Shown one piece after another: positions 1,894-39,267 of a stretch of 39,335 nt of DNA (positions are counted from its first letter, which is position 1; each line of letters starts with the position of its first letter). The position numbers were made by a program, and so were the translations under genes. A model generated the notes under the pieces. The model was not told the DNA's origin. It worked only from the letters and a program-made list of their open reading frames with translations, and did not search any database. Origin of the DNA: a virus; the IMG/VR virus record IMGVR_UViG_3300009499_000019, positions 1 through 39,335 of that record. One strand, 5' to 3'.

Positions 1894-2316
1894 CTACTTG
1901 AACTCCACCTTCGAGAAGACAACCGATACAGAGGTAATCTCGGGGCTTGCCTTATGCATGATCTCGAACTTCTTTGAGGCTCCCGGCAGCAGGTCCTCCA
2001 GATCGTTGGTAAACGCGGAGTCAACGATATCGCCGCTCGAGTTCTTATAGAATGCTGTCAGCTTCCAATATCTAACAGTCTGATCGCTGCCATTCTGGAC
2101 AGATCCTCTGATGTAGTCATAACCCCCATCAAGTACCCATTGCTTATTGACAACCGTTACCAGGGTTGCAGGATTGGGGGTTGGGCTAGGTGACGGGACT
2201 GGCGTTGGCAGGGAATTGATTGCGTTCACCACCCCTTGACAACCCACAGCCGATGCCAACGAAATGCCGGTCAAAGCGACTAGCATCGCAGAGGACCACC
2301 CTAAGAACCCCTTCAT
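1894..2316 (-). CDS. Small secreted lipoprotein with FxLYD-like domain
   Basis: Predicted 140-residue lipoprotein. The start at 2316 (MKGFLGW) gives a clean signal peptide: Lys2, a hydrophobic stretch to about residue 24, and a lipobox-like AVG followed by Cys26. A GTG at 2337 in frame would only add seven residues before it. A Pro/Ser/Thr linker (LPTPVPSPSPTPNP) follows, then a compact beta domain of about 85 residues. That domain reads GSVQNGS, YWKLTAFYKN, GDIVDSAF and LLPGASKKFEI, the pattern of FxLYD domains of bacterial surface proteins. The gene runs opposite to the early genes and is AT-richer than its neighbours, so it looks like a lysogenic cargo gene. It might alter the cell surface or block superinfection; that part is inference. 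Confidence 0.75.
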   Translation of the reverse strand: MKGFLGWSSAMLVALTGISLASAVGCQGVVNAINSLPTPVPSPSPTPNPATLVTVVNKQWVLDGGYDYIRGSVQNGSDQTVRYWKLTAFYKNSSGDIVDSAFTNDLEDLLPGASKKFEIMHKASPEITSVSVVFSKVEFK

Positions 2317-2398: not shown

Positions 2399-2428
2399 TT
2401 GATAGAACATTCGTTCGATTGCTACCAT
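2399..2428 (+). promoter_or_regulatory. Promoter with GAAC-N4-GTTC LexA-type box
   Basis: TTGATA (2399-2404) and TACCAT (2423-2428) are 18 bp apart and can serve as -35 and -10 boxes. The spacer starts with GAACATTCGTTC (2405-2416), a perfect GAAC-N4-GTTC dyad, the operator form of Gram-positive-type LexA. Its place inside the promoter is where a repressor would act. The first downstream gene starts at 2451. This suggests SOS control of the 2451-3052 operon. Confidence 0.6.
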
Positions 2429-2450
2429 ATGGATGCAAGGAGACACGGTC

Positions 2451-2747
2451 ATGGCAGCTCACAACGACGCCCCGATTCACGACCAGCTCGCCGACTTGGC
2501 GATGCGCAACGCCGAGCTGAGGGGCCGCATCGAAAACGACTTCATCCAGCTCCTGGGGGTGCTCATCGGTATCGAGCGGCAGACGGACCGGTGTCTGGAA
2601 ACCGTGAATCGGGCACTGGGCCTGCAAAGGGCTGAGCGGTATGAGCGAGAGACGCCCGCATACCTGGACCGCCTCTGCGAGGTCGTAGGCCCAGGCATGG
2701 CTACTTTCCTTCGCTCCCAGCTTGAAGCTGGATGGGGGGTGGCGTAA
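2451..2747 (+). CDS. Hypothetical helical protein, first gene of the putative SOS operon
   Basis: A 98-residue protein (MAAHNDAPIHDQL). The ATG at 2451 is preceded by AAGGAG at 2438-2443 with 8 bases between, which is better than the ATG at 2433. The sequence is charged and probably all helical: LADLAMRNAELRGRIENDFIQLLGVLIGIERQTDR, then a C-terminal part with AYLDRLCEVVGPGMATFLRSQLEAG. No family is recognised. It lies directly behind a promoter with a LexA-type box and overlaps the next gene by one base (TAATG), so the two are surely co-transcribed. The position beside a repressor that cannot self-cleave makes an antirepressor role plausible, but nothing in the sequence proves it. Confidence 0.7.
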   Translation: MAAHNDAPIHDQLADLAMRNAELRGRIENDFIQLLGVLIGIERQTDRCLETVNRALGLQRAERYERETPAYLDRLCEVVGPGMATFLRSQLEAGWGVA

Positions 2748-3052
2748 TGCGCAACAGCACCGATCGCCTGTACACTCCATACGACGACACCGAGATGGAA
2801 GCGACGCGGCAGCGCTTGCTGTCAGCGGTCCAGAATCGTGACTGGTTCGCCATCCTATCGGAGCGCGAGCTGGTCCGGCGCGAAATGCGAGAGGCCGGGA
2901 TGCCGGTCCCCGAGGATCCGCCCATTTCGGCAGAGGACCAGAGGAAGGTTGACCGCGCGGTCGCGATCATTCGGGAGTTCCTAGCCGAGCAAGAAGCTGG
3001 CGAAGCCGATCCGCTGGCAGTTGGCGAAGGGCTCGAATCTCTTCCGGCTTGA
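2747..3052 (+). CDS. Hypothetical protein convergent with the repressor
   Basis: A 101-residue protein starting at the ATG that overlaps the previous stop (TAATG at 2745-2749). It is hydrophilic and mostly helical (TEMEATRQRLLSAVQNRDWFAIL, then DRAVAIIREFLAEQEAGE) with a short proline-containing turn (GMPVPEDPP). No family is recognised. Its last 86 bases overlap the 3' end of the repressor gene on the opposite strand, so transcription of this operon runs directly into the repressor message. This could lower repressor levels by transcriptional collision or antisense RNA, or the protein itself could bind the repressor. The C-terminal tail in the overlap is the least certain part. Confidence 0.6.
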   Translation: MRNSTDRLYTPYDDTEMEATRQRLLSAVQNRDWFAILSERELVRREMREAGMPVPEDPPISAEDQRKVDRAVAIIREFLAEQEAGEADPLAVGEGLESLPA

Positions 3053-3653
3053 GGGTGGCGAGGATTTCGCGGGCATGCTGCTCAACGGGATCCATCTCGG
3101 ATGTGACCGCCGACTCCCTGGCCAACCGCTGCTCAGCCTCGGCCACGTCCCTGGGCGCGTATCGGCTGTCCACCGACCGAACCGCTATCGCATGGGAAAC
3201 CTGGCGAAGGCGCTCCTCCTCTTCCGGGGTCCGAGCCTTGCGGCGGAGCGCTTGCTCTTCGGCCTGAAGCGCGGCCAGCTCGGAGTCAATTCGCTCCTTG
3301 CGTTCGCGGTGCAGCTGCACCCTCTCTTTGGCCTCGAGGATCGATGAGGCGGCGCGCTCGAAGACTTCAGCGTCGCTCAGCAGCTCCTTGGCCATCTCGA
3401 CCCGAACTGCTTCATCCTGACCTTCTAGGGCGGCCCAGGCTTTCAGCTCGGCAAGTGGCACACCTAGGTGAGGGGCGATCGCCTTCAAGACGGAGTCGGT
3501 GAAGGCCTTCTTGCCGCCCTCCATCTTGCTCAGGTTGCTTTGATCGACCTCGGCTAGTTCGGCCAGGCGATTACAGCTGAGTCCCTTCTGGGCCCTCAGC
3601 TTCACCACTCTGTCGGCCAACGTATGTGTCAAATCTGACATAGCTTGCTTCAT
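2967..3653 (-). CDS. XRE-family prophage repressor without S24 domain
   Basis: Predicted DNA-binding lysogenic repressor, 228 residues. The N-terminal part carries an XRE/lambda-type helix-turn-helix: LADRVVKLRAQKG, CNRLAELAEVDQSNLSKMEGG, then LKAIAPHLGVPLAEL (about residues 12-70). The middle is a long charged coiled coil (about 85-155, rich in E, R, K, A). The C-terminal part contains DPVEQHAREILATLKPEEIRALRQLPADRLRQLLARL. There is no Ser/Lys pair or Ala-Gly cleavage site of the S24/LexA peptidase family, so RecA-driven self-cleavage is not expected. The start may be 3653 (MKQAM) or the second ATG at 3641 (MSDLTH); neither has a good ribosome site. It is divergent from the Cro-like gene across the ACCTA operator cluster. 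Confidence 0.88.
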   Translation of the reverse strand: MKQAMSDLTHTLADRVVKLRAQKGLSCNRLAELAEVDQSNLSKMEGGKKAFTDSVLKAIAPHLGVPLAELKAWAALEGQDEAVRVEMAKELLSDAEVFERAASSILEAKERVQLHRERKERIDSELAALQAEEQALRRKARTPEEEERLRQVSHAIAVRSVDSRYAPRDVAEAEQRLARESAVTSEMDPVEQHAREILATLKPEEIRALRQLPADRLRQLLARLGTPE

Positions 3654-3664
3654 CGTACCGGTTT

Positions 3665-3744
3665 ACCTAAATTTAACCTAGGTCTGTATTGACCTAAGGT
3701 TTATTTCGACCTATGCTGTTCACAGCTAGGTTGAATTGGACCTA
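3665..3744. promoter_or_regulatory. Operator cluster of six ACCTA half-sites
   Basis: The AT-rich gap between repressor and Cro-like gene holds ACCTA or its complement at 3665, 3676 (perfect palindrome ACCTAGGT, 3676-3683), 3692 (ACCTAAGGT), 3709, 3727 (TAGGT, inverted to 3709) and 3740. The 3709/3727 pair frames a further inner dyad, GCTGT-TC-ACAGC. Starts are spaced 11-18 bp. This is the expected binding region of the repressor and the Cro-like protein and overlaps the rightward promoter. Confidence 0.8.
3689..3717 (+). promoter_or_regulatory. Rightward early promoter
   Basis: TTGACC (3689-3694) and TATGCT (3712-3717) are separated by 17 bp, a good sigma-70-type match. Two ACCTA operators overlap it: ACCTAAGGT at 3692 covers the -35 edge and ACCTA at 3709 covers the -10. 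Transcription would begin shortly before the Cro-like gene at 3758 and drive the early operon. A leftward promoter for the repressor must lie in the same gap but is not clear by eye. Confidence 0.65.
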
Positions 3745-3757
3745 ACGGAGGAGCCAA

Positions 3758-3979
3758 ATGAAGAGCATCAAGGACGCCTGGAAGAAGGCGGGATTCGACA
3801 CCCGAGGAAAGGCCGCGGCCGCAGCGGGGATTCACCGGGACCAGCTTGCCAAGTACGAGCGCGGGACGCACAAGCCTGGTCTCGAGGTCTTGCAGCGGAT
3901 GGCCAACGGCTGGGGAACCACCATTGACGAGCTGACCGGCCGGCCCCCGAGCGCCACCCCCAATCCACCGGCGGCGTAA
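3758..3979 (+). CDS. Cro-like XRE regulator
   Basis: A 73-residue protein that is nearly only a helix-turn-helix. GKAAAAAGIHRDQLAKYERGTHKPGLEVLQRMANGWGTTIDELTG (about residues 17-61) has the XRE layout: helix 2, recognition helix, then the 'P-x-L-x-x-L' helix. A short Pro/Ala tail follows. GGAGGAG at 3747-3753 lies four bases before the ATG. The gene is the first one rightward of the operator cluster and divergent from the repressor, the classical place of Cro. It is expected to bind the ACCTA operators and turn down repressor and early transcription in the lytic cycle. Confidence 0.85.
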   Translation: MKSIKDAWKKAGFDTRGKAAAAAGIHRDQLAKYERGTHKPGLEVLQRMANGWGTTIDELTGRPPSATPNPPAA

Positions 3980-7938: not shown

Positions 7939-8517
7939 ATGCTCTCAACCACCTTCGCCCTCCTGCGCCAGCACGACGCCTGTGAGGGCGGTTATCGAAA
8001 GCTCGCCAGGCACCTGGGCGGGATCGCCGCCTACGGCAAGGACACTCCGATCCCGCTGCTGACCATCCTGGAGAGCAACGGACTCAATGATTGTCTCTGG
8101 TCGCTCCGCGCGGTACCTGCCGAGCAAGAGGAGGATCGCGACCGGATCGCCCGGCTTTTTGCGATCGACTGCGCGGAGCGTTCTCTCGTCAACTGGGGGC
8201 AGTTTTCACGCGACGACCGCCGACCCCAAATGTCGATCGAGGTCGCACGTCGGTTTGCTGAGGGTCAAGCGACCGCTGAAGAACTGTCGGCGGCGTGGTC
8301 GGCGGCGTGGTCGGCGGCGTGGTCGGCGAGGTCGGCGGCGAGGTCGGCGGAGTCGGCGGAGTCGGCGGCGTGGTCGGCGGAGTCGGCGGCGTGGTCGGCG
8401 GAGTCGGCGGAGTCGGCGGCGTGGTCGGCGGAACGGGACTGGCAGGAGCAACTCCTGCGGAAGCACCTCACCCCTGAGCCCAAGGAAGAAGCGAAACCAC
8501 TGCCCGAGGCCGTCTAG
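7939..8517 (+). CDS. Phage protein with WSA/ESA repeats, family of unknown function
   Basis: A 192-residue protein preceded by AAGGAG. The first part (to about residue 115) has the conserved core of a family frequent in phages: ARLFAIDCAERS, DDRRPQMSIEVARRFAEGQATAEEL. Residues 117-164 are made of short Ala-rich repeats (SAAW, SAAR, SAE), then RDWQEQLLRKHL closes the fold. Proteins of this type resemble the Imm5-like group, but their role in phages is unknown. The Ala-rich repeat would form a long amphipathic helix with Trp or Glu at fixed faces. Number and type of repeat units normally vary between relatives, matching the near-perfect DNA repeat underneath. Confidence 0.75.
   Translation: MLSTTFALLRQHDACEGGYRKLARHLGGIAAYGKDTPIPLLTILESNGLNDCLWSLRAVPAEQEEDRDRIARLFAIDCAERSLVNWGQFSRDDRRPQMSIEVARRFAEGQATAEELSAAWSAAWSAAWSARSAARSAESAESAAWSAESAAWSAESAESAAWSAERDWQEQLLRKHLTPEPKEEAKPLPEAV
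8287..8432. repeat. Minisatellite coding for the WSA repeats
   Basis: Tandem array built from the blocks TCGGCGGCGTGG (Ser-Ala-Ala-Trp) and TCGGCGGAG (Ser-Ala-Glu), with a few TCGGCGAGG and TCGGCGGCGAGG variants. All units are multiples of three, so changes in copy number keep the frame. The first three 12-bp units are identical at the DNA level, which points to recent expansion. Confidence 0.9.
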
Positions 8518-10546: not shown

Positions 10547-11061
10547 CCACGCATATTTCAGACCTCATCCGCTTACCCGAGGGCGACTTCGAGGAGGAGC
10601 GCGTCATCGACCTCGAGACGCGGACGGTCCGGACGATCCGGCGGCCGCGGGAGTCGGGGAGCAACGAGCCGGCCCGGCGGCGCGACCCAGGATACCGGCA
10701 CCTGCTGTGCCAGGACCGCGGCGTCATCGACTACATCGAGCAGCGGCCCCACGGCGTCATCGGGGACGACCGGACCATCCCGTACGGCTACGTCGCTCGC
10801 TGCTACTGCAAGGCCTCGCTGAACGTGTCCCAGTCGATCCCACAGTTCGTGGACATCTTCGGGGCGTGGCCAGAGGAGCCGGGCCGGCAAGCGCCGCCGC
10901 GAGTGCAGGAGCCTGAGGCGCCGAAGCCTGCCGGCAACCTGCTCCGGTTCCCATCGTACACCGAGCCCCCCGAGGTCGTGCCCGAGGTGATCGTGCCGGC
11001 CCCGAGCCAGTCCACCCAATTCACCGGGACGCAAGTCCAGGATTTGAGCGACTTCGAGTGA
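10543..11061 (+). CDS. Hypothetical protein after the initiator, 172 aa
   Basis: Starts with GTG at 10543 in a GTGA overlap with the initiator gene. The first 110 residues look folded: ISDLIRLPEGDFEEERVIDLETRTVRTIRRP, then YRHLLCQDRGVIDYIEQRPHGVIGDDRTIPYGYVARCYCKASLN, with a CYCK motif. The rest is Pro/Glu-rich and probably disordered, ending in the acidic tip QVQDLSDFE. No helicase or loader motif is present. Co-translation with the initiator suggests a replication accessory role, which is inference only. The acidic C-terminal tip is reminiscent of single-strand DNA-binding proteins, but no OB fold can be recognised by eye. Confidence 0.65.
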   Translation: MTTHISDLIRLPEGDFEEERVIDLETRTVRTIRRPRESGSNEPARRRDPGYRHLLCQDRGVIDYIEQRPHGVIGDDRTIPYGYVARCYCKASLNVSQSIPQFVDIFGAWPEEPGRQAPPRVQEPEAPKPAGNLLRFPSYTEPPEVVPEVIVPAPSQSTQFTGTQVQDLSDFE

Positions 11062-11072
11062 GGAGAAACGAC

Positions 11073-12323
11073 GTGACTACGAGAACCGAGCCCGACACTT
11101 ACGCGAGCTACACCGGCGGCCAGGGCGACCGCGCCCCGTGGGAGCCGGCTCCTAGCAAGCCCATCTCGGATTACATCGGGCGCCACTACCTCTGGCAGGG
11201 GAACCCGCTCCGCAAGCCGACGCTCAAGGTCACCGCCATCGATGGCATCGGGGCTATGGCCGACGTGATCATGACCGACGTGGCCGACCCCACGCAGACC
11301 CGGCGGGTGCCGATCGGCGTCTTCCGCGCCGAGATCGCGAACGGCCAGCTGGCGGATGTGACGAGCTACGACGCCTACTCGGCCAAGGTCGAGAGCGCCA
11401 TCTTCGGGCCGGAGCCCAAGGCCGACAACCAGGGCGACAATGAGGACGCTTCCTCTTTTCCTGCCTCAAATGAGGCCGAAAAACAGGAAGCGGTGGCCGA
11501 GGAGAGCGAGTTCCCGGTCGACGACCCCGGGTGCGAGGGCGATCGCCACGATGCGCGCGAGCGGCCGACGATCGAGCGCGATTCGTGGTGGGAGGCCCGT
11601 CATCAAACCCGCCTTGGCGGTCCCGGAACCAAGTTCGAGGTGAGGGCAATCCTGGACAACGGCGACCTGCTGTTGATCCCGGCGCACATCGGGGATGCAA
11701 TCACCCAGTCCCCGGGCCAACTGCTCAACACTGACTTGTGGGCGCCGTGCGAACCCCCCACCCTGGCCGAGCAGGTCATGCCCGAGCTGTGCGAGCCCAT
11801 GGTGGGTGGCGAGTCGGCGGAATCCCATGGTGGTGCCCCGTCCGACGAGGCCGCCGCGCCCTACGTCAGCGACATCGACCCGGGCTACGCCGAGCGCGTG
11901 GCAAACGACACATGCCGGACGCCCGGAGGCGAGCACATCGAGGGGACCCCGGTGCTGGAATGCCCGGGATGCCAAGCGGTTAAGCGCAGCACCGACGAGT
12001 TCTTCAAGGTCAACGGGTACCAGCCTCCGGCTCCCGAGAAGCCGAAGCGCGGTGGCCGCAAGCCGAAGGCCCATCCCGAGCAGCCCGCCGAGGAAGCGCC
12101 CCTCACCGAGGAAGAGACCAACGACCGCATGGCGGCTGCATACCAGCACCGGATCGCCCACGCCCCGCAGACCGTGGATGACTGGTTGGAGCACGTCCGG
12201 CTCTGGTCCAACACCGTCGAGGCCCGGAAGGCCGACCTGGCCGAGGCCGTGACCAAGCTCGACGAGGCCAAGTCGCAGGCCCGCCGGATGTTCGAGGAGC
12301 GGCTGAGGAGGATGAGGGCGTGA
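11073..12323 (+). CDS. Large hypothetical early protein, 416 aa
   Basis: GTG at 11073 lies six bases after AGGAGA, better than the GTG at 11058. The N-terminal part (about 25-110) reads like a small beta domain: ISDYIGRHYLWQGNPLRKPTLKVTAIDGIGAMADVIMTDVADPTQTRRVPIGVF. A long acidic, Glu/Ala-rich section follows, then a second beta-like segment (TRLGGPGTKFEVRAILDNGDLLLIPAHIGDAI). Near residue 290 stand CRTPGG...LECPGCQAVKRSTDEFF, a small Cys cluster. The C-terminal 70 residues form a charged coiled coil. I do not recognise the family. The mosaic of small domains fits an early phage regulator or DNA-processing protein, without proof. Confidence 0.7.
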   Translation: MTTRTEPDTYASYTGGQGDRAPWEPAPSKPISDYIGRHYLWQGNPLRKPTLKVTAIDGIGAMADVIMTDVADPTQTRRVPIGVFRAEIANGQLADVTSYDAYSAKVESAIFGPEPKADNQGDNEDASSFPASNEAEKQEAVAEESEFPVDDPGCEGDRHDARERPTIERDSWWEARHQTRLGGPGTKFEVRAILDNGDLLLIPAHIGDAITQSPGQLLNTDLWAPCEPPTLAEQVMPELCEPMVGGESAESHGGAPSDEAAAPYVSDIDPGYAERVANDTCRTPGGEHIEGTPVLECPGCQAVKRSTDEFFKVNGYQPPAPEKPKRGGRKPKAHPEQPAEEAPLTEEETNDRMAAAYQHRIAHAPQTVDDWLEHVRLWSNTVEARKADLAEAVTKLDEAKSQARRMFEERLRRMRA

Positions 12324-14343: not shown

Positions 14344-14367
14344 AAGCCGCCCAGTGGGGCGGCTTTT
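14344..14367 (+). terminator. Intrinsic terminator at the end of the early operon
   Basis: The stem GCCGCCC (14346-14352) pairs with GGGCGGC (14357-14363) around the loop AGTG, extended by AA/TT at the base and followed by TTTTCTCTT. It starts three bases after the stop of the zinc-ribbon gene. A classical Rho-independent terminator separating early and late regions. Confidence 0.9.
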
Positions 14368-14466: not shown

Positions 14467-15045
14467 GTGGAATCAAAACGCAAACAACCCCATGTGTCTC
14501 GCGAGGGGAAGTGTACCGCACGAAGCAAACGCCGCCCCGGGGAGCCATGCGGAGCATGGGCCGTCAAGGGAAAGGATGTCTGTTACCATCACGGCGGGGC
14601 GAGCACAGGCGCCCCGGACCGCAACAAGAATGCGGTAACGACGGGCGAGCGGGAAACCATCTGGACCGATGTCCTGGACGAGACCGAGCAATCGATACTC
14701 GAGCGCAACCTCGACAAGCTGAAGCTGCTCGAGGAAGAGATCGGGCTCCTGACCATCCGCGAACGGCGGATGCTCGCGCGCATCAAGTCGCTCGCAGATG
14801 ACCCGGACGGCATGACCCTGGTTGAACAGACCGAGGAGTTCAGCGAGGACAGCCACAAGAGCAAGGCCAAGAGGATCGGCACGCTCGGACAGATCCAGCG
14901 AATCGAGGAGGCGCTGACCAGGGTCCAAGCCCAAAAGAATCGGGCGATCGAGCTGAAACACAAGCTTGAGATGGATAGCGGCGCGGCAGACGGGGGCAAC
15001 ATCCCGACCATTCGTGTCGTTCCACCGTCTGGGAAGACGATATGA
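14467..15045 (+). CDS. terS: Terminase small subunit with N-terminal zinc finger
   Basis: A 192-residue DNA-recognition subunit of the packaging motor. Start GTG at 14467 behind a G-rich stretch. Residues 16-42 hold C16, C28, C39 and H42 in the pattern CTARSKRRPGEPCGAWAVKGKDVCYHHGG. The signature HHGGASTGAPDRNKNA that follows is typical of terminase small subunits of this kind. The rest is a long charged coiled coil (TEQSILERNLDKLKLLEEEIGLLTIRERRMLARI; RIEEALTRVQAQKNRAIELKHKLE) for oligomer formation. The protein would bind the packaging site and hand the DNA to the large subunit, whose ATG overlaps the stop. Confidence 0.85.
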   Translation: MESKRKQPHVSREGKCTARSKRRPGEPCGAWAVKGKDVCYHHGGASTGAPDRNKNAVTTGERETIWTDVLDETEQSILERNLDKLKLLEEEIGLLTIRERRMLARIKSLADDPDGMTLVEQTEEFSEDSHKSKAKRIGTLGQIQRIEEALTRVQAQKNRAIELKHKLEMDSGAADGGNIPTIRVVPPSGKTI

Positions 15046-16481
15046 GCGAGTTCGTAATCGGGCCCGAATACTTCCTCCCCAAGCAAAACGAGTATGTGTG
15101 GACGCCGGACGATGGCCGTCCAAAGGATATCGCTCTGTACTTGGGCGGGGTTGGCTCCGGAAAGACCTTCTCGAGCGTGCGCAAAGGCTATCTCATCAGC
15201 CAGATTTACCCGGGCTCTCGGGGCCTGGTTGGCGGTGAGGACTACCCACTTATCCGCGACACGACGCTCGGAGGTGTACATGGCTGGCTCGACTTCATGG
15301 AGACGGAGTTAGGGCTCGTCGAGGGCAGGCACTTCCGGTTCAACCGAAACGAGCACAAGATCGGTTTCCCGAACGGATCCGAGGTGCTGTTCAGGGGGCT
15401 CCGGCACCAGCGAAAAATCAAGAGCTTGACGCTGACCTGGGCGCACATTGAAGAGGCGTCCGACATCACTCTCGAATCCTTCCTCCAGGTCGACGCGCGC
15501 CTTCGACAGGGCGCGCCCGCCGGTTGGATGGGGGATTGGCGCCGCTTTCTGTTTCTGAGCACCAACCCCGAAGAGGTGGCGGGCTGGATTCACGACCTTT
15601 TCATCGCGCAAGAGGACAATCCCGAGTGGACCGAGGGCAGGAAGAAGGCGATCGACAAGATCAGGCCATTCATCCGCTACGTGCACGCGCCGACGACCGA
15701 GAACGACCGGCTCCCAGATGGTTACCTAGATTCGATGCTCGCGCTGGGTGACGACGACTGGGTCGATGTCTACGTCCACGGAAAGACAGGGGGTAAGGGG
15801 AAGGGGCGGGTTTACCGAGCCTTCGACCGAGGGATCCACGTCGATGGGGTCGGCGATCGTGCATTCTATCGTCCTGACCTTCCCTTGAGGCTCGCGCTGG
15901 ATTTCAACGTTAACCCGATGACGGGGAGTATCCACCAAGTGCTGCCCGACAAAACGATCTTGACCTTCGATGAAATCAGCATCAAGGACAGCGGAACTCA
16001 GGACCTCTGCGAGGAATTCTTGCGGCGGTATGGTCCTTGGGGGCGGGCGCCGCACAAGGGACAGGTCATCGTCTATGGGGATGCGGCCGGCAACTCGCGT
16101 TCAACGAAAACTAGCGACTCGGATTACGACATCGTCCGACGAATGCTGTCCGGCAAGTTCAGTGGCGGCGTAGCGTTCCGCGTTCCAGAGGCTAACGGCC
16201 CGGTCAAGGATCGCGTCAATGCGGTCAATGCCAAGCTGAAGAGCGCCTCGGGTGTCGTGGGATGGGTGATTCATCAGCGATGCAAGACGCTGATCAAGGA
16301 CCTCGAGCTGGTGCGCTGGCGCGAGGGGACAACGGACATCGACAAGAAGACCGACCCGCGCCTGACGCACATGAGCGACAACGCGGGATACCTGGTCGTC
16401 TGGGAGTTTCCGGTGAAGCCACCCAGCGCGGGCGCGGTCACCGTTAACCAGCTACGGGCGATCCAACAAGGGAGGCGCTGA
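15042..16481 (+). CDS. terL: Terminase large subunit
   Basis: A 479-residue packaging ATPase and nuclease. Walker A GGVGSGKT is at residues 35-42, Walker B around TWAHIEEAS (132-140, E137/E138), and the coupling motif is FLSTNP near 170. The RNase H-like nuclease domain shows D287 in ALDFNVNP, D347 in VYGDAAG and D446 in MSDNAGY, the three metal-binding acids. It pumps DNA into the prohead and cuts it at the ends. The length and motifs fit the family well, and all catalytic residues are present. It starts in an ATGA overlap with terS and is followed with a TGATG overlap by a putative virion protein. Confidence 0.95.
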   Translation: MSEFVIGPEYFLPKQNEYVWTPDDGRPKDIALYLGGVGSGKTFSSVRKGYLISQIYPGSRGLVGGEDYPLIRDTTLGGVHGWLDFMETELGLVEGRHFRFNRNEHKIGFPNGSEVLFRGLRHQRKIKSLTLTWAHIEEASDITLESFLQVDARLRQGAPAGWMGDWRRFLFLSTNPEEVAGWIHDLFIAQEDNPEWTEGRKKAIDKIRPFIRYVHAPTTENDRLPDGYLDSMLALGDDDWVDVYVHGKTGGKGKGRVYRAFDRGIHVDGVGDRAFYRPDLPLRLALDFNVNPMTGSIHQVLPDKTILTFDEISIKDSGTQDLCEEFLRRYGPWGRAPHKGQVIVYGDAAGNSRSTKTSDSDYDIVRRMLSGKFSGGVAFRVPEANGPVKDRVNAVNAKLKSASGVVGWVIHQRCKTLIKDLELVRWREGTTDIDKKTDPRLTHMSDNAGYLVVWEFPVKPPSAGAVTVNQLRAIQQGRR

Positions 16482-19001: not shown

Positions 19002-19176
19002 GTACCAGCTTTCGATCCGCATCCTGCCCGAGGTGGCCTGGCATGGCTCGAAGGCTGACCGGATTCAGAAGCTGATCGTGACCGACCCGGAGATCCGTAA
19101 GCGAATCTCGGAGCTGGCCTCCAGCGTCGACCCGCGGGCGATCGTCGAGCGGCGAACCGATGCCGCTGGCTCCTGA
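18991..19176 (+). CDS. Small protein between portal and MuF-like gene, 61 aa
   Basis: Starts eleven bases inside the portal gene behind GGCGGGAG and overlaps the next gene by 17 bases. The product (MLRRYQLSIRILPEVAWHGSKADRIQKLIVTDPEIRKRISELASSVDP...) is basic with two probable helices. No family is recognised. The long overlap on both sides suggests coupled translation; a shadow of the neighbouring frames cannot be excluded. Confidence 0.5.
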   Translation: MLRRYQLSIRILPEVAWHGSKADRIQKLIVTDPEIRKRISELASSVDPRAIVERRTDAAGS

Positions 19177-21004
19177 CGATCCGAAGCTCGTCCAGGTCAT
19201 CGGGGTCTCGAACGACGAACTCGAGCGGTTCACGGCGGATCGGCAGAAACGCCTCCTCGCGGTCTACCAGCGCGAACGGGACGTTCTCATCCACCGCTTG
19301 ATGAAGGTCGGGACGGGCGACACCTTCGGGGCCCGGCACATGGCTGCGTCACTGAGCGTGCTCGACGACGCGATCTCGCGCCTGCTCGATGAGCTGAACG
19401 GCGTGTTCAAGTCGGCATTCGTCGATCACGCCGAGACGGCGGCCGGCCAAGCGGTGCGGGAGGTCTCGCAGCTCGAGGGAGCGTTTGCCTCGGCGTCGAC
19501 AGCCCGGGCGATCGCCGCGCTCGATGGGGTGATCCCCCACCGGGCGATCGACCAGGTGGTCCAGCTCGGGAAGTTCGAGACCGAGGGGATCGTGCTCGAC
19601 ATCGACGCGACGACCAAGGCGATCCTACAGCGGGGTCTCCTCACCGGCCGCAACTCGCGGCAGCTGGTGGGCGAGCTGGCGCAGCAGGTGGGCGACAACA
19701 TGGACCGGCAGGCCTGGCGCCTCGAGACTACGCTCCGGACCGGGCTCAACGCGGCCCAGGCCAGGGCCCATAACGAGACGTACACCGAGATCCGCGACGA
19801 CCTCTTGCCCGACCTCAAGCGCCAGGGCCACGAGTTCCTGTTCAGCTACGCCAAGGAGCTGAGCACGCGGGGTGGGCGCCGGAGTCGCAACCATCCTTTT
19901 TCTGCCTACCTCGAAGGGAAGGTGACGGACCTCGACAAGCCATGGGTCGTCTCGTCGCCCGTCTTTCCGGTGATGTTCTGGGCGCGCGACGGCGGGGCCT
20001 ACACCGGCATGCACTACCCGGCGCACCTCCACGAGCGGGGCCGCCAGGTGCCCTACCATCCGGCGTGGGATGCCTCGAGGTCACAGGCGGCGACGCGGGT
20101 GGGCCAGGCCGCGAAGATGCAGGAGGACATCGAGGCGAAGATCGCGCGGAAGACTGGGGAGTCTCAAGGCTTGGCCGGCTCACCGGTTCCAGGGGCGCGC
20201 CAACGTCCCGCCCTTGGGGCTGACGCCCGCCGGGAGGTGCTGCGCCGGGCCGAGCGGCTACAGCGACGCCTCGACCGATCCGCGGACGAGATCGCGAGCC
20301 TGAACCGCAAGATGCGCGAGTTGTTTGGGTCAGACGACCCCGCGGCCGAGGCTCGGATGAAGGAGTTGACCAGGCGCCAACGGGACCTGATAGCCCGGCG
20401 CAACGCGATCTGGGAAAACCAGACCTCGATCGTCAGGAAAGGGATCGAAGCCCCGACACCGGCCGCTCCGGACATCACCTACTCCGGCCGTGGGCCGCGG
20501 ATCGCCAAGTGGAAGGAGGGGGCCGAGGTCTTCAACCGGCTGGTGGGTCCTGGCCTGGTCGATGGACAGGGCATCACCATCACAGGGATCCCATCCGGGA
20601 AGGCTCAGCGGGCGTTCTACAGCAACCTCCGCCGCACCGTGTTCCAGGACCGGCGCGACGAGCCGCGGGTGATCGTCCACGAGATGGGGCACTGGCTAGA
20701 GCACAACGCCCGGGGGGTCCAGGACAAGGCGATCGCCTTTTGGCGGCGTCGAACCCAGGGCGAGCCGGACAAGCGCCTCGTCGACCTGTTCCCGGATGCT
20801 GGCTACGACAAGAAGGAAACGACCAAGGTCGACCAGTTCATCCACCCGTACATGGGGAAGGTGTACTATCAGGGCGGCAAGATTGCGGCCACCGAGGTCA
20901 TCTCAATGGGCCTCGAGGAGCTGTATGCCGATCCGGTCGGGTTCGCGAAGCGTGACCCCGACTACTTCGACTTCATCTACGAGCTGGTTCGGGAGGGCGG
21001 CTAG
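19160..21004 (+). CDS. MuF-like head protein fused to a zinc metallopeptidase
   Basis: A 614-residue protein with two parts. Residues 1-320 have the character of MuF-type minor head proteins that bind the portal: helical N-terminus, LLTGRNSRQLVGELAQQV, RLETTLRTGLNAAQARAHNETYTEIRDDL (about 190-218), then HPAHLHERGRQVPYHP. A charged helical linker (about 330-420) leads to a C-terminal domain with HEMGHWLEH at 507-515: H507, E508 and H511 are the zinc and catalytic residues. ATEVISMGLEELYADP (577-592) supplies a likely third ligand (E579 or E586). Other MuF proteins carry C-terminal effector or toxin domains. A peptidase here could process virion proteins or be injected into the host. Which one is unknown. 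Confidence 0.8.
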   Translation: MPLAPDDPKLVQVIGVSNDELERFTADRQKRLLAVYQRERDVLIHRLMKVGTGDTFGARHMAASLSVLDDAISRLLDELNGVFKSAFVDHAETAAGQAVREVSQLEGAFASASTARAIAALDGVIPHRAIDQVVQLGKFETEGIVLDIDATTKAILQRGLLTGRNSRQLVGELAQQVGDNMDRQAWRLETTLRTGLNAAQARAHNETYTEIRDDLLPDLKRQGHEFLFSYAKELSTRGGRRSRNHPFSAYLEGKVTDLDKPWVVSSPVFPVMFWARDGGAYTGMHYPAHLHERGRQVPYHPAWDASRSQAATRVGQAAKMQEDIEAKIARKTGESQGLAGSPVPGARQRPALGADARREVLRRAERLQRRLDRSADEIASLNRKMRELFGSDDPAAEARMKELTRRQRDLIARRNAIWENQTSIVRKGIEAPTPAAPDITYSGRGPRIAKWKEGAEVFNRLVGPGLVDGQGITITGIPSGKAQRAFYSNLRRTVFQDRRDEPRVIVHEMGHWLEHNARGVQDKAIAFWRRRTQGEPDKRLVDLFPDAGYDKKETTKVDQFIHPYMGKVYYQGGKIAATEVISMGLEELYADPVGFAKRDPDYFDFIYELVREGG

Positions 21005-22846: not shown

Positions 22847-23845
22847 ATGATCGATTTCAACGCGATTCAGGTCGTCCTGAATCAGACGTTCGCAAGCCCT
22901 GTCGCTGACCAGCTGAACAACCGCGTCCAGATCCTCCGCACCCTGAAGAAGACGATCGGGGGCGGGAAGAACATCAGCTGGCCCGTGAAGGTCGCGGCCA
23001 ACTACCAGGCGGCCTCCTACGCCTCGGGTGCCGTCATCAACTCGGGCGCCTCGGTGACCAACACCCGCGTCCCGGCCGTCCTGCAGTGGGCCCTCAACAA
23101 GGCCGAGTTCTCGGTCGCGGGCGACGCGCTCGCGATCGCCGCCACGTCCGGTCCCGAGGCCCTCGCCAACCTGTTCAAGGACGAGGTGATGGGGGCGGGC
23201 CGCGACCTCGCGGTCTCCCTCGCCACCCAGCTTTATGCCGCCAAGGTCCAGTCCACGGACATCGACGGGTTCGGCGTCGCGCTGACCAACACCGGCACCT
23301 ATGCGACGATCAACCGAGCCACCTACTCGGCATGGCAGGCCAACTACTACGCGAACGGTGGCGTGGGCCGCGCGCTCACCAAGGCCATGCTCGACCAGGG
23401 CGAGCGTGACTGCTTCGCCAACTCGGGGTTCACGCCGGACCTCATCATCACCACACCGACCCTCATCAACTCGTACGAGGGCCTGTTCACCTCGATCCAG
23501 CGACAGAACACCGATCAGCCCTACGACATCGCGCCGCGGCTGTCGGACATCCACTACCGCGGGATCCCGGTCATCCGGGACGCCCGGTGCCCGGCGGGGG
23601 CCCTCTTCATGCTGACCCTGGACTCGATGGAGTTCGAGCAGCTGCCTCCCCTCACCACCGCCGATGGGATCTCCCTGGTGGCCGGCACGGAGCCCCTGAT
23701 GGACCCGGATGGCAATGTCGGGCTCCAGGTCACGATCGAGCTGCTCGGCAAGACGGGTGACAAGGTCGACGGGTTCATCAAGTGCTACAACAACCTGGTG
23801 GTGAAGCACCCGAACATGAACGCGGTAATCAAGGACCTCCAGTAG
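22847..23845 (+). CDS. Major capsid protein
   Basis: A 332-residue coat protein following the scaffold. The start at 22847 is preceded by AGGGAG. The sequence resembles HK97-fold/P22-type coats: DQLNNRVQILRTLKKTIGGGKNISWPVKV (N-arm and E-loop region), NKAEFSVAGDALAIAATSGPEALANLFKDEVMGAGRDLAVSLATQLYA (spine helix), PDLIITTPTLINSYEGLFTSIQRQ, YRGIPVIRDARCPAGALFMLTLDSMEFEQLPPL, then KTGDKVDGFIKCYNNLVVKHPNMNAVIKDL in the C-terminal P-domain strand. It would form the icosahedral shell. No N-terminal cleavage site is obvious and no prohead protease gene is seen, matching a P22-like scaffold-release pathway. Confidence 0.88.
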   Translation: MIDFNAIQVVLNQTFASPVADQLNNRVQILRTLKKTIGGGKNISWPVKVAANYQAASYASGAVINSGASVTNTRVPAVLQWALNKAEFSVAGDALAIAATSGPEALANLFKDEVMGAGRDLAVSLATQLYAAKVQSTDIDGFGVALTNTGTYATINRATYSAWQANYYANGGVGRALTKAMLDQGERDCFANSGFTPDLIITTPTLINSYEGLFTSIQRQNTDQPYDIAPRLSDIHYRGIPVIRDARCPAGALFMLTLDSMEFEQLPPLTTADGISLVAGTEPLMDPDGNVGLQVTIELLGKTGDKVDGFIKCYNNLVVKHPNMNAVIKDLQ

Positions 23846-39212: not shown

Positions 39213-39267
39213 ACGTAGTGGAGGCGCAGGGATTCGAACCCTGAACCAAGGGATTATGAGTCCCCTG
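39213..39267 (-). other. attR: Right attachment site
   Basis: Bases 39213-39260 are identical to 76-123. The right copy is inside an intact tRNA gene, so the prophage end restores the 3' part of the tRNA and leaves the host gene functional. The repeat includes six bases past the tRNA end. Confidence 0.9.

Follow-up and report, generated by a model that had tools for sequence, protein, structure and literature searches.

A putative LexA-controlled operon converging on a repressor gene without signs of self-cleavage: a candidate DNA-damage input of an uncharacterised prophage

Introduction

How would a prophage register damage to the DNA of its host when its repressor shows no sign of cleaving itself? 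The question is raised by the immunity region of the IMG/VR virus record IMGVR_UViG_3300009499_000019, which was analysed over its entire 39,335 bases (the window) and in which two small open reading frames (ORFs), ORF98 and ORF101, form an operon that starts at a promoter holding a LexA-like dyad and converges on the gene of an XRE-type helix-turn-helix (HTH) repressor. LexA/CI-type repressors are cut at an Ala-Gly or Cys-Gly bond (PMC3121763). A repressor that is not cleavable has to be connected to DNA damage in some other way. The ORF98-ORF101 operon, with its LexA-like box, is the sole visible candidate for such a link in the prophage. We favour, at a little short of an even chance, the reading that it would be the DNA-damage input of the prophage, a LexA-controlled antirepressor operon.

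Results

A repressor without signs of self-cleavage

An earlier note on this DNA, made from the letters alone, had described the repressor as an XRE protein without an S24 peptidase, and the present searches agree. Its HTH spans residues 12-73, the charged tail, which to our reading looks like a coiled-coil, carries no S24 domain, and the 228 residues contain neither an S24 match nor an Ala-Gly or Cys-Gly bond. Additionally, searches of the whole prophage for S24 and M78 peptidases, which detected their positive controls, found neither. As judged from its sequence, this is a repressor without any sign of self-cleavage, and no peptidase was found that would cleave it. An ImmR/ImmA-type switch, in which the repressor is cleaved by an M78 metallopeptidase, likewise has an HTH repressor without S24 but differs from the present locus in possessing that peptidase.

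A LexA-like dyad between the promoter hexamers of the operon

The operon is preceded by a sigma70-like promoter, P_SOS, with the hexamers TTGATA (2399-2404) and TACCAT (2423-2428), an 18-nt spacer and a TG ahead of the -10 element (Table 1). The perfect GAAC-N4-GTTC dyad that the earlier note had placed inside a promoter is the sole one in the window and lies entirely within this spacer, between -35 and -10, a position at which a bound repressor would obstruct RNA polymerase. Its extended form, TAGAACATTCGTTCGA (2403-2418), matches 11 of the 12 positions of TCGAAC-N4-GTTCGA, a consensus that may not be that of the host. GAAC-N4-GTTC is the LexA motif of Bacillus subtilis and Mycobacterium tuberculosis and, by extension, of Gram-positives (Firmicutes, Actinobacteria) (PMC3323433), while Streptomyces LexA recognises the related form tCGAAC-N4-GNNCGa (PMC9380542) and cyanobacterial LexA reads the related RGTACNNNDGTWCB (PMC3091678).

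The presence of such a dyad and its position have different statistical standing. Perfect dyads are expected 0.55 times per window in shuffles, 36% of which hold at least one, and 0.58 times in Markov simulation; an extended match of 11 or better was reached in 18 of 200 simulated windows and is by itself not very rare. The placement within a promoter, in contrast, is beyond chance. It occurred in 0.07% of 1500 Markov-simulated windows, and a perfect dyad in the 134-bp intergenic region upstream of ORF98 has a probability of P = 0.0013 under the composition of that region. Among 91 other phage loci (1.36 Mb), none of the 10 perfect dyads lay between promoter hexamers. Applied to the plus strand of the prophage, the same promoter criterion returned two promoter-like elements, P_SOS and the lytic promoter, against 1.8 expected by chance. 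A hairpin upstream of P_SOS (2355-2405) was no more stable than in shuffles.

These figures bear on the explanation by which the dyad would have arisen by chance or would serve a regulator other than LexA, the operon would be an ordinary gene pair expressed in lysogeny, and induction would be spontaneous or otherwise triggered. Such a scenario would fit the roughly 0.6 perfect dyads expected per window, and no relatives were found in which conservation could be checked, but the exact placement between -35 and -10, rare in simulation and unseen in real phage contigs, makes it unlikely. The phage repressor itself was considered as regulator of the operon and rejected: phage operators were sought in 2317-2450 and not found, so that control of the operon by this protein is unlikely. 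By our judgement, and not by any computed value, control of the operon by LexA is rather likely.

Table 1. Coordinates of the operon, the immunity region and the neighbouring genes in the window
Feature	Coordinates	Strand	Remarks
P_SOS, sigma70-like promoter	2399..2428	+	TTGATA-18-TACCAT
Putative LexA box	2405..2416		perfect GAAC-N4-GTTC dyad, GAACATTCGTTC
ORF98	2451..2747	+	orphan helical protein, antirepressor candidate
ORF101	2747..3052	+	orphan helical protein, antirepressor candidate; TAATG-coupled to ORF98
Overlap of ORF101 and repressor gene	2967..3052		tail-to-tail, 86 bp
XRE/HTH repressor	2967..3653	-	228 aa
Operator 1	3679..3696		TAGGTCTGTATTGACCTA
Operator 2	3696..3713		AAGGTTTATTTCGACCTA
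Operator 3	3727..3744		TAGGTTGAATTGGACCTA
P_R, lytic promoter	3689..3717	+	TTGACC-17-TATGCT; overlapped by operators 1 and 2
Cro-like HTH protein	3758..3979	+	73 aa, first gene of the lytic operon
Integrase	301-1533
Small gene	1556-1840	-
Lipoprotein-like gene	1894-2316	-	FxLYD domain; divergent from ORF98

Operators, overlap and the convergent transcript

Three 18-bp operators of the form TAGGT-N8-ACCTA lie between the repressor gene and the Cro-like gene, overlapping or flanking the lytic promoter P_R. With up to two mismatches allowed, the motif occurs nine times in the window where 3.8 would be expected, and the best three all fall in this interval. Two weaker copies, one at 3625-3642 that spans the second in-frame ATG of the repressor and one at 3663-3680, may serve autoregulation. 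As in lambda-type immunity regions, divergent HTH genes surround repeated dyad operators that overlap the lytic promoter; the repressor here, however, shows no sign of the RecA-stimulated self-cleavage of the lambda type.

The convergence of the operon (2451-3052) with the repressor gene, another statement of the earlier note, was borne out, the final 86 bp of the operon being shared by the two genes. Within this overlap the third position of each frame takes on the second-position composition of the other, as expected for two-strand coding, which over 27-28 codons is only suggestive. Neither strand was found to carry an intrinsic terminator between ORF101 and the repressor gene. A single weak hairpin (3300-3321), inside the repressor gene, stands before the lytic promoter, while strong terminators occur elsewhere in the prophage, at 14344, 21237 and 37260. 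In the absence of an intrinsic terminator, convergent transcription could lower repressor synthesis, and read-through would head towards the lytic operon, whose direction is that of P_SOS.

Transcription itself could be the switch: a LexA-controlled promoter would drive RNA synthesis into the repressor gene, and this convergent RNA would block or silence repressor synthesis, perhaps continuing through the operators into the lytic operon. The tail-to-tail overlap, the distribution of terminators and the shared direction of P_SOS and the lytic operon speak for this account. Nevertheless, both ORFs look translated and coupled, so that the proteins would be expected to act in their own right; a stop to new synthesis would leave repressor that is already bound in place; and Rho-dependent termination is possible. 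We regard this form of the switch as quite improbable. A transcript effect is compatible with an antirepressor, and the sequence cannot separate the two. The account that unites them, in which one SOS-fired transcript would encode a new antirepressor pair and extend as antisense RNA across the repressor gene in the direction of the lytic operon, thereby removing the repressor, stopping its resynthesis and helping the lytic start, seems to us distinctly unlikely in that full form.

ORF98 and ORF101 are coupled orphans

ORF98 has the Shine-Dalgarno sequence AAGGAG 8 nt upstream of its ATG, and the start of ORF101 lies in a TAATG that overlaps the ORF98 stop, pointing to translational coupling. 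Codon usage moderately backs both ORFs as coding: they score 0.17 (ORF98) and 0.14 (ORF101) bits per codon, where the 95th percentile of wrong frames is 0.12, and stand at or just below the 5th percentile of true genes (0.17), weaker than the structural genes.

For neither protein was a significant family match found in Pfam, PHROGs, NCBIfam or PADLOC, a tblastn match in the phage collection, anything beyond chance in plasmid records, or a match among solved structures. Family searches returned no resemblance to known antirepressor, DinI, RecA-modulator or toxin families, and peptide patterns found no relatives in IMG/VR. AlphaFold single-sequence models of both orphans are all-helical and of low confidence (mean predicted local distance difference test score, pLDDT, 71.6; predicted template modelling score, pTM, 0.42), and Foldseek gave no match with E below 1 among viral models. 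Because no relatives were found, neither protein has comparative support, and we claim no homology-based membership among known antirepressors.

The prophage, its neighbourhood and its relatives

The window is a complete prophage. An exact 48-bp direct repeat (att) occurs at 76-123 and 39213-39260, and since the repeat coincides with the 3' part of a tRNA, intact at the right copy and with anticodon CAT, the prophage is integrated and present with both ends. ARAGORN called this tRNA Met (CAT), with CCA not encoded; its GACTCATAATCCCTTGG context looks like that of Ile2.

From 5' to 3', the integrase gene is followed by two minus-strand small genes, the ORF98-ORF101 operon, the repressor gene and the Cro-like HTH gene; then come genes for an HNH endonuclease, an AlpA-like regulator, a Sak4-like protein and RusA, and finally the terminase, portal, capsid, tape measure and tail genes. 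The lipoprotein-like gene possibly shares its control region with ORF98, a weak promoter-like element being present at 2452-2424, and its product could be a surface protein expressed in lysogeny. Further along, the gene at 7939-8517 contains a tandem-repeat array (8286-8431) over which its product has AAWSAESAAWSA-type repeats; this protein matches the immunity protein Imm5 at a borderline level. An early-region protein of 421 residues (11058-12323) has no PHROG, Pfam or NCBIfam match.

No close relative of the phage was found in any collection searched, and conservation of the box, the operon and the overlap therefore cannot serve as evidence. Full and degenerate tRNA patterns had no match in GTDB genomes, nor the att core in IMG/VR, where peptide patterns likewise revealed no relatives of the repressor and portal. 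The best kin in integrase and tape-measure searches reached only 25-28%, and those in the portal alignment only 28-34%. A weak search, run without a positive control over 35 virus records with loci of this kind, turned up neither a repressor nor a capsid-protein relative. The terminase (15042-16481) and capsid (22847-23845) are closest, at 26-30%, to those of cyanophages S-H1 and KBS-S-2A and Acaryochloris phage A-HIS1, and terminase, capsid and minor head protein are 26-38% identical to their cyanophage counterparts, which offers a faint hint of the host. A head protein of 614 residues (19160-21004) has a metallopeptidase-like HEMGH motif (20678) in its C-terminal domain, a domain common to Planktothrix phage PaV-LD (38% over 188 residues).

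Discussion

From the arrangement described above, we infer LexA binding, damage induction and antirepressor action as follows. In the lysogen, host LexA on the dyad would keep ORF98 and ORF101 off, while the non-cleavable HTH repressor would hold operators 1-3 and the lytic promoter. Upon DNA damage, self-cleavage of LexA would allow the two proteins to be made as a coupled pair; ORF98, ORF101 or both would then bind the repressor and strip it from its operators, and the lytic operon would start. Transcription of the repressor gene may in addition be hampered by the tail-to-tail overlap, which has no terminator. If LexA control is granted, antirepression would be quite likely, again by our judgement rather than by computation.

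Precedents for this logic exist. The LexA-controlled antirepressors of Gifsy phages act by binding the repressor, which thereby comes off the DNA; in phage 186, Tum binds the repressor in like manner, and AntC of N15 is another protein under LexA control (PMC3121763). With Gifsy GfoA, GfhA and GftA the present locus would share a non-cleavable repressor and small proteins made from a LexA-type promoter, whereas no sequence similarity was detected and the putative LexA motif here is of another type. With Tum and AntC it would share, as proposed, an SOS-regulated antirepressor acting on a non-cleavable repressor; Tum, however, has a DinI-like half (PMC3121763), while ORF98 and ORF101 match neither DinI nor any other family. 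The pair, which matches no known family, is best read as a LexA-controlled antirepressor operon that would follow the logic of GftA/GfoA, Tum and AntC without kinship in sequence.

A further comparison is offered by the Vibrio phage modules of a transcription factor and a small open reading frame (TF-smORF; phage 72 smORF and VP882 Qtip), whose small proteins also lack homologues and inactivate the phage repressor. Their activation comes from a phage transcription factor and does not depend on SOS, and the repressors there are of the self-cleaving kind (PMC10432266); the divergent neighbour of ORF98, in contrast, is the FxLYD lipoprotein-like gene and not a transcription factor. Since the repressor-inactivating small proteins studied there are without homologues as well (PMC10432266), orphan status is no argument against an antirepressor role.

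The pair could instead be a LexA-controlled accessory damage response that, for example, modulates RecA or host division or acts as a toxin, with no antirepressor involved. Accessory phage genes under SOS control, DinI homologues among them, do share operons with antirepressors (PMC3121763), and the neighbourhood of the integrase and lipoprotein genes resembles an accessory-gene region. Yet no DinI, RecA-modulator or toxin family was matched, and the prophage would then lack any apparent route from damage to its non-cleavable repressor, so that we consider this alternative fairly unlikely.

Several observations weigh against the antirepressor operon that we favour. The dyad alone is not significant, and the choice of motif was open among several phylum-specific LexA types; corrected for about six known motif types, a number estimated by us, the result for its placement still stays below 1%. 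The host LexA may read a motif other than GAAC-N4-GTTC. Neither protein has any homologue, antirepressor or other, and their models are of low confidence and matchless. Finally, the Gifsy antirepressor genes lie outside the immunity region (PMC3121763), whereas the ORF98-ORF101 operon directly adjoins and partly overlaps the repressor gene. The earlier note had taken the two proteins as candidates for a new antirepressor, or the convergent transcript itself as a silencer of the repressor. Partial support for this interpretation comes from the position of the dyad in the promoter, from a repressor without signs of self-cleavage and with no cleaving peptidase found, and from the convergent overlap without an intrinsic terminator.

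The operon, as far as its sequence can tell, is probably the wake-up switch of the prophage. Many temperate phages have repressors that cannot cleave themselves, and their way of sensing damage has been worked out in only a few cases, mostly enterobacterial. In this sense, the ORF98-ORF101 operon represents a compact and readily testable candidate in an uncharacterised prophage, and, if the proposal is true, its overlapping layout would let protein and transcript act together.
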